Source of the DNA: Tepidibacillus decaturensis
GTDB lineage: Bacteria; Bacillota; Bacilli; Tepidibacillales; Tepidibacillaceae
Direction of reading: 5' to 3'
DNA: 37,465 nt
Assembly: GCF_001561915.1 (NCBI RefSeq)
Contig: NZ_LSKU01000001.1
Coordinates: 1,761,074-1,798,538 of the forward strand
The translations under genes were made by a program, and so were the position numbers. The stretch's first letter is position 1, and each line of letters starts with the position of its first letter. The notes beneath the pieces are model-generated. The model ran no database searches. It saw only the letters and a list, made by a program, of their open reading frames with translations, and had not been told where the DNA came from. Shown here piece by piece: positions 5,832 to 32,880 of the stretch.

Positions 5832-6923
5832 TTAAGAGATAAACTCCCCTTTTAGCACTTGAACTACTAAATCCCCCATTTCTTTTGTCCCTGTAAGTTT
5901 AGTGGATTCTATTTTATTTGTAGCTAAGTCTTTTGTACGATAACCTGCTTGCAAAACATGATCCACGGCTTGCTCAATTTGTGTAGCGGCTTCATTCATA
6001 TGAAAGGAGTATTTTAACATCATGGCTAATGACAAGATTGTGGCTAAGGGATTAGCAATGCCAAGTCCCGCAATATCTGGAGCAGAACCATGAATCGGTT
6101 CATACATGGCCACTTTTTCAGTTCCGATGCTAGCAGAAGGAAGCATACCGATCGAGCCAGTTAACATTGCTGCTTCATCACTTAATATATCACCAAACAT
6201 ATTTTCAGTCACAATCACATCAAATTGTTTAGGATTACGAATCAGTTGCATGGCACAATTATCTACCAACACATGCTGCACCTCTACTTCGGGATATTCT
6301 TTAGCCATGGTATTGACGATCTTTCGCCATACTCTTGAGGACTCTAGAATATTTGCTTTGTCAACAGAGGCTAGCTTTTTGTTCCTTTTCATCGCTGTTT
6401 CAAAACCAAGGCGAATAATTCGCTCCATTTCTTCTTCGGTGTAAGTGAGCGTATCTGACACTTTGATTCCTTTTTCAGTCATTACTTTTGTTCGCTCACC
6501 GAAATAAATTCCTCCCGTTAATTCTCGGATTACTAGTAAATCTACTCCTTGAATCACTTCAGGTTTAATCGTTGATGCTTCAACCAGAGGGTCATATACT
6601 TTCACTGGACGAAGGTTGCTAAATAGCTTTAATTCCTTTCTTAAACCAAGTAATGCTTTTTCGGGTCTACTTTCACCAGGTAGATCATCCCATTTTGGGC
6701 CACCAACAGCTCCTAATAAAACAGCGTCGCTTTGTAAACAATGTTCAAGAGTAGTATCTGGTAATGGCTCTCCAAAGTGATCAATCGCATAACCACCAAC
6801 AGGATATTCATTCACCTCAAAGAGCATATGATATTGTTCCCCAATTACTTTTAATACTTTTAGCGCTTCTACCATAATCTCTGGTCCGATTCCATCTCCA
6901 GGCAATACTGCGATTTTAGGCAT
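5832..6923 (-). CDS. leuB: 3-isopropylmalate dehydrogenase
   Basis: This enzyme oxidises and decarboxylates 3-isopropylmalate with NAD+ to 2-oxoisocaproate, the third reaction of leucine synthesis. The 363-aa length is normal. Visible hallmarks are LPGDGIGPE at the N-terminus, [11 protein letters not shown] near residue 75, the arginine-rich substrate region ([21 protein letters not shown]), the KANIL and DNCAMQL segments, and the metal/NAD region [13 protein letters not shown] followed by [12 protein letters not shown]. The ATG lies inside the end of leuD (8-nt overlap) with GGAGG about 7 nt before it, consistent with translational coupling. It is the last gene of the operon. Confidence 0.97.
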
Positions 6924-15444: not shown

Positions 15445-15777
15445 AAAGACTCCATTCCAAATGACATGAATTTTCACATCATTTGGGACGAAGTCTTCGT
15501 GGTACCACCCATCTTCGCTTTCCTTTTCACAAAGGAAAACCTCGATACGTGCAGTAAAAGATTGCACGTCATGGCGTAACGGCCAAGGCCGAACTTTATT
15601 ACTGTGATCTATATCGATCAGTTCACAAAGTTGATTCAAAGGTGAGTTCGCAAAGGGGTTACGGCTAAGATCTCAGCTTTCCTTAGCTCTCTGAACATAA
15701 CGGTTTCCTTTGTTACTTGTCCTTATCATCATCTTTTTACGTATTGCTTAACAACTGCTTTAATTTTTTAAAGTGTT
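15442..15777 (-). promoter_or_regulatory. T-box leader, probable leucine (CUC) specifier
   Basis: Read on the minus strand, the leader contains the AGAGAGCT box and GCTGAGA of stem I. A specifier region follows with GAACTCACCTTTGAA, in which CTC (15644-15646) is in the usual specifier position. The near-invariant T-box sequence GGGTGGTACCACG is at 15498-15510. A terminator stem (CCAAATGA with TCATTTGG, extended by flanking pairs) ends in six T residues at 15442-15447. Uncharged leucyl-tRNA should pair with the specifier and the T-box and favour the antiterminator, turning on all eight genes. A 92-codon open frame inside the leader is a by-product of this structure. Confidence 0.93.
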
Positions 15778-16973: not shown

Positions 16974-18386
16974 CTATTTTTCTAACCATTCTGTATGGAA
17001 GGTACCCTCTTTATCGATTCGTTGATAGGTATGAGCTCCAAAATAATCCCTTTGGGCTTGAATTAAATTAGCTGGTAGTCTCTCAGTTCTGTAGCTGTCA
17101 TAATAAGCGATTGCGCTCGCAAAACCTGGTGCGGGAATTCCATTTAATACAGCAATCGATACCACTTTTCTTAAAGAATCTTGATAACTCTCAAGGATCT
17201 TTTGAAAATAAGGAGCCAATAATAAATTTTCTAATTGTGGATTCTGATCAAATGCATCTTTTATATTCTGTAAGAATTTCGCCCGAATAATGCAACCACC
17301 GCGCCAGCCCATAGCGATTTCTCCAAATTTTAAATTCCAATCATATTCTTTAGACGCGGCTTTTAATTGGGCAAAACCTTGTGCGTAAGAAATAATTTTG
17401 CTTGCATATAAAGCTCTTCTAATGTCTTCAATCCATTGCGTTTTATCTTCTGATAACGGTTCTCTCTTTGGACCATTTAAAATTTTACTAGCCTTGATAC
17501 GTTCATCTTTAAGTGCTGAAATAAAACGAGCAAATACAGACTCTGTAATGACTGGAAGGGGAACTCCTAAATCAAGAGCACCTTGACTTGTCCATTTCCC
17601 TGTTCCTTTTTGTCCTGCTGCATCCATAATCATATCTACTAGGGGTTTACCTGTTTCTTCGTCGATTTTGGTGAAAATATCTGCTGTGATTTCAATCAGA
17701 TAACTATCTAACTCTCCTTGCTTCCACTCAGAAAATACTTGATGCAGTTCGTTTGCATCTAATTGTAAAAGTTCTTTTAATAAATGATAAGATTCACTAA
17801 TCAGTTGCATATCACCATATTCAATTCCATTATGCACCATTTTTACATAATGACCTGCACCATTAGGGCCAATATAGGAACAACAAGGTTGGCCATCCAC
17901 TTCTGCAGCGATGCTTGTTAACATAGGCTCTACTAATTTATAGGCATCTTCTTGCCCCCCTGGCATAATTGCAGGGCCTTTTAATGCCCCTTCTTCTCCA
18001 CCGGAAATACCTGCGCCAATAAAGCGTATTCCTGCTGCTTCTAACTCTTTATTTCGTCTAATGGTGTCCATAAAATAGGCATTTCCACCGTCAATCAGAA
18101 TGTCCCCTTTTTCTAGATGGGGCTTTAGTTGATTGATCGTTGCATCAGTTGGTTCTCCTGCCTTGACCATAATAATAATTTTTCTTGGTTTTTCTAAGGA
18201 TTCAATAAATTCTTCAATACTATATGTACCAATAAGGTTCTTTCCTTTTGCCTCTTTTACTAATTCATCTGTTTTTTCACGAGAACGATTATATACAGAT
18301 ACGGAAAATCCTTTGCTCTCAATATTTAAGGCTAGATTCTTGCCCATAACGGCAAGACCTACCACACCAATTTGCTGTTTTGCCAT
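16974..18386 (-). CDS. gnd: 6-phosphogluconate dehydrogenase, decarboxylating
   Basis: Gnd oxidises 6-phosphogluconate to ribulose 5-phosphate and CO2 in the pentose phosphate pathway. The nucleotide-binding start is [20 protein letters not shown] with the cofactor loop [11 protein letters not shown], whose Asn-Arg-Ser pattern suits NADP+. The substrate site shows [19 protein letters not shown] and [22 protein letters not shown], and the tail has [20 protein letters not shown]. The frame can also begin at a GTG four codons earlier, but that GTG is inside the ribosome site AAAGGTGAG. The ATG at 18386 gives 470 aa, the normal length. Confidence 0.95.
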
Positions 18387-18533
18387 TTGCTTGCTCACCT
18401 TTCTTTATCAACTTTTTCCTATTTTGTAGGCTACCCTTCAACATGAAATGTATTCCATTTTTATAAACCCTATTTTATACTATCTCTTTTCATCCTTGGT
18501 TTCAATTGGGCAAGTATTCAATCTAACCAAAAG

Positions 18534-18577
18534 AAAAAAGGATGGCTCCAATCAGCTAAAGTAGGTAGCACATCCTT
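18534..18577 (-). terminator. Terminator ending the candidate RNA
   Basis: A 7-bp stem (18538-18544 with 18571-18577) is extended by three pairs beyond a single bulge (18545-18547 with 18567-18569). T6 on the minus strand corresponds to 18534-18539. It would also stop read-through from the gal operon before gnd. Confidence 0.75.
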
Positions 18578-18615
18578 CCGGGAGGGGCAACCTGTCCTTG
18601 TCCCTTCCCTTCTCT
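18534..18615 (-). ncRNA. Candidate small structured RNA upstream of gnd
   Basis: On the minus strand a perfect TATAAT (complement of 18622-18627) is followed about 7 nt later by an 82-nt segment with two strong elements. The first is a purine-rich 8-bp stem with one mismatch, GGGAAGGG (18602-18609) with CCCCTCCC (18580-18587), capping a 14-nt loop. The second is a terminator: AAGGATG plus GCU pair with AGC plus CATCCTT, with one bulged base, followed by six T residues. It lies 147 nt before the gnd start, so it is either a free small RNA or a leader attenuator. I do not recognise it as a known riboswitch or housekeeping RNA. No convincing -35 is visible, which lowers confidence. It also disposes of a 63-codon open frame here. 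Confidence 0.5.
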
Positions 18616-18686
18616 ATTCATATTATACAATATTAAAATTATGCATAAAAGTTTTTGAAGAAAAGATTTCAAAAACGGCTCAAAAC

Positions 18687-18724
18687 AAAAAAAGAAACCC
18701 TCTTTATGAATAGAACGGATAAAG
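18687..18724 (-). terminator. Weak possible terminator after galM
   Basis: CTTTAT and ATAAAG (18702-18707 with 18719-18724) could pair, but the run of seven T residues on the minus strand begins 8 nt beyond the stem. It is a poor terminator on its own; the stronger one downstream at 18534-18577 may do the work. The rest of 18628-18772 is AT-rich, with a short CAGCATGCTG palindrome and nothing else I can name. Confidence 0.3.
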
Positions 18725-18772
18725 CAGCATGCTGATAAGTGTGCCACTTTATGTGACGAAAATTAAATCCAA

Positions 18773-19819
18773 CTAGTTTGTCTTAAATTTGTATTTTGTA
18801 ACAGATCGATATATTTCATCTTTCTCAACTATTGTTGATGGAAAATTGGGATGATGAATAGCATCTGGTAGACCTTGTGTTTCAAGACATAAACCAAGAT
18901 AACGTTGTGCTATTACATCTCGTATCGTAAAATCTTCTGATAATTGATTACCAGTATAAAGGACAACCCCCGGTTGATCTGTTTCAATGATTAAAGCCCT
19001 ACCACTTTCAGTATCCTGTAAATATATTTCACCATTATTATTTTCTGATAATAGGAATGGATGGTCATAACCATTTCCAGCTAATACATTTTGCTGATCT
19101 TTTGATACAACTCCATCCCGTATTTTTCGTCCTGTTCTAAAATCAAAAACTGTATTTTCTACAGGGAGTATCTCTCCAGTAGGTAGCAACTGTTCATCCA
19201 ATTCAACAAATCGATCACTCTTCAATGTTAATATATGATCAAGAATGTTTCTTTTTAGATTCCCGCTTAAATTAAAGTAAGAGTGATTCGTAACATTGAT
19301 TACCGTTCTTTGATCACTTATTCCTTCATATGCAATGACTAACTCATTACTATTATTTAGTGTATATATCACTTTCATTTGCAAGTTCCCTGGATAGCCT
19401 TCTTCTCCGTCCTTGCTGATATATTGAAATACTAGACTGACATCATCTTTATTTTCTTTTACCTCTACATGCCATATTACTTTGTCAAATCCTTGTAACC
19501 CACCATGAAGATGGTTACCATTATCGTTCTTTGCTAAATGATAGATCCTACCATCTAATTCAAATTCCGCATTTTTAATTCTACCAGCATGTCTACCCAC
19601 GATTGCACCAAAATAAGGGGAATGCTGTACGTATTCGTCAAGTGTATCAAAACCTAAAACAACATTTTCAATTGTACCAAAGCGGTCAGGTATCATAATA
19701 CGAGTAATGATACATCCATAATCAATACTGGTTACTTCCATACCATGATCATTGATTAGTGTAAAAGACCTAACGATCTGCCCGTCCAACTCTGCAAATT
19801 TCTCATGTACTACCTTCAT
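18773..19819 (-). CDS. galM: Aldose 1-epimerase (galactose mutarotase)
   Basis: GalM interconverts alpha and beta anomers of galactose so that galactokinase receives its alpha substrate. The family residues are visible: the histidine in HLHGGLQGFDK, the second in NVTNHSYFNLSG, and the catalytic glutamate in LCLETQGLPDAIHHPNFPS near the C-terminus. At 348 aa the length is normal. The frame also has a TTG two codons earlier, but GGAG lies 8 nt before the ATG at 19819. It is the last gene of the galR-galK-galE-galT-galM group and follows galT by 18 nt. Confidence 0.93.
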   Translation of the reverse strand: MKVVHEKFAELDGQIVRSFTLINDHGMEVTSIDYGCIITRIMIPDRFGTIENVVLGFDTLDEYVQHSPYFGAIVGRHAGRIKNAEFELDGRIYHLAKNDNGNHLHGGLQGFDKVIWHVEVKENKDDVSLVFQYISKDGEEGYPGNLQMKVIYTLNNSNELVIAYEGISDQRTVINVTNHSYFNLSGNLKRNILDHILTLKSDRFVELDEQLLPTGEILPVENTVFDFRTGRKIRDGVVSKDQQNVLAGNGYDHPFLLSENNNGEIYLQDTESGRALIIETDQPGVVLYTGNQLSEDFTIRDVIAQRYLGLCLETQGLPDAIHHPNFPSTIVEKDEIYRSVTKYKFKTN

Positions 19820-19837
19820 GCTCAATACTCCAATCGA

Positions 19838-32032: not shown

Positions 32033-32880
32033 TTAGTTTGTATTATCACTTAATTCCATAAACAGGAAGTTTTTTTGAAATTTTTTGTGAAAAGTGAAAA
32101 ATATACATAATCTTGAGGCTATACTCTCTCTGAACCTCCGCACTAACTCCTTAACTCCCATGATGTTAATCAATCTTTTCAAATTATAAGCAAGGCAAAT
32201 AAAGCCTCCCTCAGTATTTACTGAATCAAGTCCTCTTGTTAAAAAATATGTATAACCTAAGTGTCTTTTTATAGTTCCAAAAGGATGCAATCGAGCCCCT
32301 TTTTTTGTAAATATCATTTTTTGCTATGGTGTTCTCATCTCTATGATCTCTTCCTCTTTAAGCCTTGTTACAGCTCTTTCACCTTTAGATGAAGTGCAAG
32401 AATCTTTTTTTCCACAATCCATATAGTTATCACATGTATAGCGCTTATAATCTTTTCCATTTTGCTTGCCGTTCCACTTAAATTCTAATCTATAGCCCAT
32501 TGCGCATATATAAACATCATCTGTTTTATCGTATTGGAAATTTTTTTATCAAAACCATTTTGAATTTTTTCTTGTTTTCCTTTTTGGCTTTTTATCAATA
32601 TTTCTGTACTATCATCTACTGCGTTAATTATTTCAGACATATTGAAATATCCCGTATCTGCTACTGCTGTAATTTTTTCTTCCGCAAATACTTGCTTAGC
32701 ATTGTTTACCATATTAGATAATTGATTCTGATCATTAACGTCATTCACTACTTCAAAAGCTACTATTGATTTATGTTTACTATCCACTGCAGTTTGCATG
32801 TTAAAACAAACTTCAAATTTACCATTATTCTTCATAGATTTTGCATCTGGATCAGTTAAACACACATTTTGTTCATATAG
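32033..32880 (-). pseudogene. Decayed IS1182-family transposase
   Basis: Pieces of one transposase occur in order on the minus strand. The first (32485-32865) holds the DDE core: LTDPDAKSMKNNGK, FNMQTAVDSKHK and AVADTGYFNMSE. A frame change near 32520 leads to a cysteine-rich stretch (RYTCDNYMDCGKKDSC) that ends at a stop near 32335. Another change leads to the last piece (32033-32317), with HPFGTIKRHLGYTYFLTRGL and LAYNLKRLINIMG, the family's C-terminus. The N-terminal third is missing; a stop lies just before the first piece. With at least two frame breaks and a truncation it cannot make an active enzyme. Confidence 0.88.

Follow-up and report, generated by a model that had tools for sequence, protein, structure and literature searches.

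A candidate small-RNA gene of a rare and patchy family between galM and gnd of Tepidibacillus decaturensis

The galM-gnd intergenic region and its RNA unit

The stretch of Tepidibacillus decaturensis DNA analyzed here (37,465 nucleotides, hereafter the window) carries galM (aldose 1-epimerase; 18773-19825), the last gene of a gal operon, upstream of gnd (6-phosphogluconate dehydrogenase; 16974-18398), both genes lying on the minus strand. The intergenic region between the end of galM at 18773 and the start of gnd at 18398 contains, on the same strand at ~18650-18528, a putative small-RNA unit. Its −35-like box, TTTTAT (18645-18650), recognized from the sequence and an alignment of promoter regions, is weak in the window copy, and a simple consensus promoter scan did not include the unit's promoter among those listed. 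A 17-nt spacer separates this box from the −10 box TATAAT (18622-18627), which is located 12 nt before the first hairpin. The −35 box is overlapped by a 10-bp palindrome, TTATGCATAA (18639-18648), a possible operator, the GCATAA of which recurs in Paenibacillus mellifer, P. timonensis and G311, a genome of the P. mellifer family.

Given a 5′ end placed from the −10 box and a 3′ end at a run of six T residues, the predicted small RNA would be ~82 nt in length (18534-18615, minus strand). The first hairpin, H1 (18580-18609), has a purine-rich 5′ arm, GGGAAGGG (18609-18602), opposite a C-rich 3′ arm, CCCCTCCC (18587-18580), with a 14-nt loop between them; the predicted fold lengthens this stem by CAA/UUG within the loop. 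The second, H2 (18538-18577), is an intrinsic terminator stem with arms AAGGATG (18577-18571) and CATCCTT (18544-18538), extended by GC/GC and running into T6 (18539-18534) and a conserved tail, TTTTTTCTTTTG (18528-18539), seen in the sequence and the promoter-region alignment. Read along the minus strand, the order is TTTTATGCATAATTTTAATATTG-TATAAT-ATGAATAGAGAA-GGGAAGGGACAAGGACAGGUUGCCCCUCCC (H1)-GGAAGGATG...CATCCTTTTTT (H2 and T6)-CTTTTG. A preliminary description of this DNA had listed a TATAAT box, a purine-rich stem, a 14-nt loop and a T6 terminator, and all of these parts are present, on the minus strand. The 8-bp stem that it reported is also there, but in that register seven of its pairs are Watson-Crick and the eighth is an A-C mismatch.

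The predicted 82-nt RNA has a folding energy of −29.4 kcal/mol. When the 81-89-nt unit was compared with shuffled sequences, the minus strand gave z-scores of −1.8 to −2.1, with 5-10 of 200 shuffles folding as well, and a separate shuffle test gave 8 of 300. The opposite strand, in the same test, performed better relative to its shuffles than the RNA strand did (z −3.9; 0 of 300). The single sequence is therefore only mildly unusual and alone proves little; it is the set of homologues that places the unit beyond chance.

The view that the unit matches no recognized riboswitch class was borne out by Rfam 15, which at gathering cut-offs left the unit unmatched across the whole window. The only family found was a T-box leader (RF00230, 122.9 bits) at 15481-15738 on the minus strand, upstream of an ilvD-ilvB-ilvN-ilvC-leuACDB cluster. 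A scan of 18400-18780 at E ≤ 10 returned six sub-threshold matches, none above chance; the best was CyaR, at 19.1 bits against a cut-off of 47, and a match to ctRNA_p42d (E 5.4; 13.7 bits against a cut-off of 50) was at chance level. Elsewhere in the window, a short ORF resembling a transposase fragment by eye lies at 32485-32865 on the minus strand, between a sugar operon and glp genes.

Homologues and conserved structure

DNA searches of related genomes revealed a paralogue within T. decaturensis itself (G000:C1:1622974-1623060; 82% over 87 nt) and two adjacent copies in Vulcanibacillus modesticaldus (G004). The second T. decaturensis copy has no TATAAT, begins 7 nt past a stop codon and may be just a terminator. 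The ORF that ends 7 nt ahead of it (L031, 3056-3280, minus strand) is short and acidic and resembles, by eye, a stand-alone sigma-70 region 1.1. In V. modesticaldus (L032, 3418-3563, minus strand) the arrangement is a nested duplication, the second copy lying within H2 of the first, and the outer GGATGA still pairs with TCATCC across the inserted copy.

A covariance model built from these four copies only was searched against 300 genomes of the class and 297 genomes of one Paenibacillus-containing family. The class search added P. mellifer (64.6 bits, E 2.4e-14) as its single clear match, and the family search yielded P. mellifer together with P. fonticola (60.5 bits), P. timonensis (51.8 bits) and G311 (50.4 bits). 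A fifth copy outside the starting set was found by a DNA search of one genus in G344, also a genome of the P. mellifer family; it has no clear promoter and may be decayed. A pattern scan of ~85,000 species genomes recovered P. timonensis, P. fonticola, P. mellifer and V. modesticaldus; its one other match, a partial one in Bacteroidales (L062), was due to chance. No further convincing copy was obtained with a refined model in 396 genomes of the Paenibacillus-containing family and 398 of the phylum, nor was anything convincing detected in the viral contigs, phages and plasmids searched. Several weaker matches were set aside: one from the family search (L055) reads as an ordinary terminator, as do most of the other Paenibacillaceae matches when inspected singly, and in G583 (36.5 bits) the H2 part falls inside a small opposite-strand ORF, and the relatives recovered alongside G583 match in coding sequence only. 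The RNA family is thus real, rare and patchy, occurring in a small number of heat-loving bacilli and of Paenibacillus species.

Alignment of eight copies revealed six pairs that had changed on both sides, five of them in H1, so compensatory changes are present in that hairpin. The covariation score of 0.199, obtained from an alignment that was fitted to the covariance model and hence leans towards structure, compares with 0.109 ± 0.018 for shuffles, none of 500 reaching it, and was lost when the register was slid. RNAalifold, making its own structure prediction from the same alignment, recovered H1 with four pairs changed on both sides. Six copies (window, P. mellifer, P. timonensis, P. fonticola, G311 and V. 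modesticaldus) have a TTG-like −35 box, which is TTGTAT in three Paenibacillus-type copies, followed at 16-17 nt by TATAAT or TACAAT and then by a gap of 12-13 nt to H1. A T6 run follows H2 in all eight copies. The conserved promoter boxes and T-tract assign transcription to the minus strand.

Among the best conserved stretches is the C-rich arm, UUnGCCCCUCCCGGAA, which is paired within H1 in the predicted fold. By reading, no continuous ORF common to the copies was seen; a small peptide product was rejected, as start and frame differ among copies. A CsrA sponge, suggested by GGA motifs, was likewise rejected, as the GGA of the H1 loop becomes GGC in Paenibacillus. A kissing pair linking GGCA/GGAC in the H1 loop to UGCC/GUCC at the start of H2 is a lead only: it fits several Paenibacillus copies, the same-genome paralogue and the copy T2, but not the window copy, and it clashes with H2.

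The single fold is marginal, and it is this comparative evidence that decides: the unit probably represents a gene for a small RNA, belonging to a patchy family not described before. For that family a set of copies is now defined, with a covarying hairpin and, as described below, a consistent gene neighborhood.

Gene neighborhoods and the strand of H1

Outside the window genome, five copies are intact (P. mellifer, P. timonensis, G311, P. fonticola and V. modesticaldus), and each has as its upstream neighbor a divergent gene heading a secreted-protein operon. The first protein of the operon contains Cu_amine_oxidN1 in four of the five loci, that of P. fonticola having no Pfam match but being S-layer-like by eye. 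The second gene encodes a protein of ~1,100-1,700 residues in four loci and of 317 residues in G311. DUF5704 is present in the large protein of P. mellifer, P. timonensis and P. fonticola and CARDB in that of V. modesticaldus; in G311 the DUF5704 gene sits in an adjoining operon. The next gene downstream of the RNA in these relatives is convergent or hundreds of bases away, which argues that the RNA is not a leader. Four other species of the genus keep the operon at the orthologous locus without the RNA, indicating that the RNA was gained or lost as a discrete stretch, and no copy lay in front of other DUF5704 genes of the genus (40 upstream regions). No paper on the DUF5704 domain was found in the collection of papers searched, and this neighborhood offers an initial way into how DUF5704 surface-protein operons are regulated.

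Three further features were observed around these loci. All six Paenibacillus-type species aligned carry a second well-conserved unit with TATAAT, hairpin and T-run, TATAATAAGTGGCAGGTGAAGCACACCTTGACATCA...GATGGCGAGGTGTGTTTTTT, ahead of the Cu_amine_oxidN1/S-layer operon (L085 ~6190-6260, plus strand, with L087, L109, L110, L111 and L115). This unit has no Rfam match and is a candidate attenuator, small RNA or gene terminator, in which AGGTG/CACCT could be an antiterminator. A CRISPR array with RF01352 repeats (L082, 8799-9288, minus strand) directly adjoins the G311 secreted-protein operon and RNA, and a RAGATH-18 RNA (L088, 1056-1126, plus strand) lies ~7 kb from the nested V. modesticaldus copies.

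The preliminary description had allowed that the unit might simply be the gal operon terminator. On this reading H1 would be incidental and the similar copies would be terminators spread by recombination. H2 with T6 is indeed a good intrinsic terminator downstream of galM and may also stop galM read-through. The promoterless paralogue in the same genome comes immediately after a stop codon, and the terminator contributes a large share of the model score, generic terminators having given weak matches. However, H1 and the promoter are conserved across families at loci where, because the upstream neighbor is divergent, the unit has nothing to terminate. A terminator is therefore insufficient, the unit recurring elsewhere with its promoter; this reading may hold for the window copy but leaves the family unexplained and is considered unlikely overall.

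The pairing in H1 bears on the strand. In the gap-free 11-pair register, the 88 cells comprise on the RNA strand 69 Watson-Crick pairs, 17 A-C combinations, 2 others and no G-U. The same 17 cells, spread over six of the eleven positions, are all G-U on the plus strand, where 86 of 88 cells pair when G-U is counted and H1 forms a stem of 11-13 bp with a 7-nt loop in most copies; allowing a bulge regains minus-strand pairs in some copies, and the cells cannot be counted as independent. The fold z-score is lower on the opposite strand in seven of the eight copies. These data suggest selection on the opposite-strand hairpin or on both strands, a lead rather than a proof. That the wobbles of H1 are G-U solely on the opposite strand poses a concrete question, namely whether the functional molecule is a sense leader or an antisense RNA.

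In its fullest form, the sense alternative holds that the functional RNA is a two-hairpin leader or attenuator reading towards the Cu_amine_oxidN1/S-layer operon, the minus-strand unit being secondary. Besides the plus-strand pairing of H1, the constant relative orientation of element and operon at five loci is consistent with such a leader. By contrast, that side has no conserved promoter, the minus strand carrying the conserved boxes and T-tract; it is also the minus strand that the three varying G-U cells of H2 favor; and neither copy in the window genome has a downstream plus-strand gene. A leader of this kind as the main functional RNA is distinctly unlikely.

A small mobile or repeat element (REP- or MITE-like) carrying promoter- and terminator-like sequence by chance would account for the dispersed copies, the nested V. 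modesticaldus duplication and the presence or absence of the RNA at orthologous Paenibacillus loci. It is nevertheless very improbable, as there are only one or two copies per genome, no target-site duplication or transposase was identified, and the promoter and RNA features are conserved as a unit. An attenuator or riboswitch controlling gnd, proposed earlier as a sensor of a sugar-phosphate signal from the position of the unit upstream of gnd on the same strand, is extremely improbable: V. modesticaldus has the RNA without a gnd-like protein at E ≤ 1e-20, so that the RNA is not tied to gnd, and the other examined copies are not upstream of gnd either.

Proposed role and comparison with known systems

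From these comparisons, the unit is assigned to a putative new small-RNA family of a known kind, and its reading as a gnd attenuator is rejected. We hold with moderate confidence that it is a free-standing minus-strand small-RNA gene of this rare, unmatched family, acting by antisense-type base pairing in cis in the relatives and in trans, or as an orphan, in T. decaturensis. An RNA of ~82 nt would start near 18615, fold into H1 and the terminator H2 and end at T6; we infer its mode of pairing and its targets. In Vulcanibacillus and Paenibacillus the RNA would be transcribed away from the secreted-protein operon, and its complement would lie within the 5′ leader of that operon if the leader starts upstream. 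Pairing with the leader through complementary hairpins could then control the operon in cis, which is the simplest reading, for the relatives, of the synteny and the two-strand pairing.

At the window copy, the lack of an adjoining plus-strand gene counts against cis action. That copy may have lost, or never had, the secreted-protein neighbor, and it might act in trans, for example through the C-rich arm on Shine-Dalgarno sequences, or be an orphan. The earlier suggestion of a trans-acting RNA with a C-rich target site is possible: the C-rich arm is conserved, but it is paired in the stem and gnd is not favored as a target. The gnd ribosome-binding region was no better a partner than shuffled sequences (z −0.35), and a target prediction over 27 gene starts of the window, in which ganP and leuA ranked best, carries no weight, the genes being too few and accessibility being left out of the scoring. 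A more specific proposal, possible but tentative, is a portable antisense module, a single short piece of DNA in which the minus-strand small RNA, made from its own promoter, and a matching leader hairpin of the Cu_amine_oxidN1/DUF5704 secreted-protein operon on the other strand are both under selection for structure, the window copy having left the operon and become trans-acting.

The putative RNA resembles the small RNAs of Bacillales with C-rich regions (RoxS/RsaE, FsrA and CsfG), in that it is short and free-standing, combines a hairpin with an intrinsic terminator, has a conserved C-rich stretch and occurs in Bacillota; in RoxS and FsrA of B. subtilis the C-rich regions bind mRNAs (PMC8216469). 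It differs from them in having no Rfam match at E up to 10, in the pairing of its C-rich stretch within H1, and in its neighbors and distribution. T-box and other leader attenuators likewise place a hairpin and then a terminator upstream of a gene, but the unit has no T-box match and no single downstream gene linked to it across relatives.

Countertranscribed antisense RNAs with two stem-loops, such as plasmid copy-control RNAs, form a third group. Unlike the plasmid RNAs, the family is found in a chromosomal-type context beside a secreted-protein operon rather than rep, the leader here is presumed, and there is no target gene opposite the window copy. In common with countertranscribed RNAs, it is short, has its own promoter and terminator, can form the same hairpins on both strands and, in relatives, diverges from a gene whose leader could be complementary. 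The H1 pattern fits a hairpin that would matter on both strands, as in antisense RNA/leader pairs.
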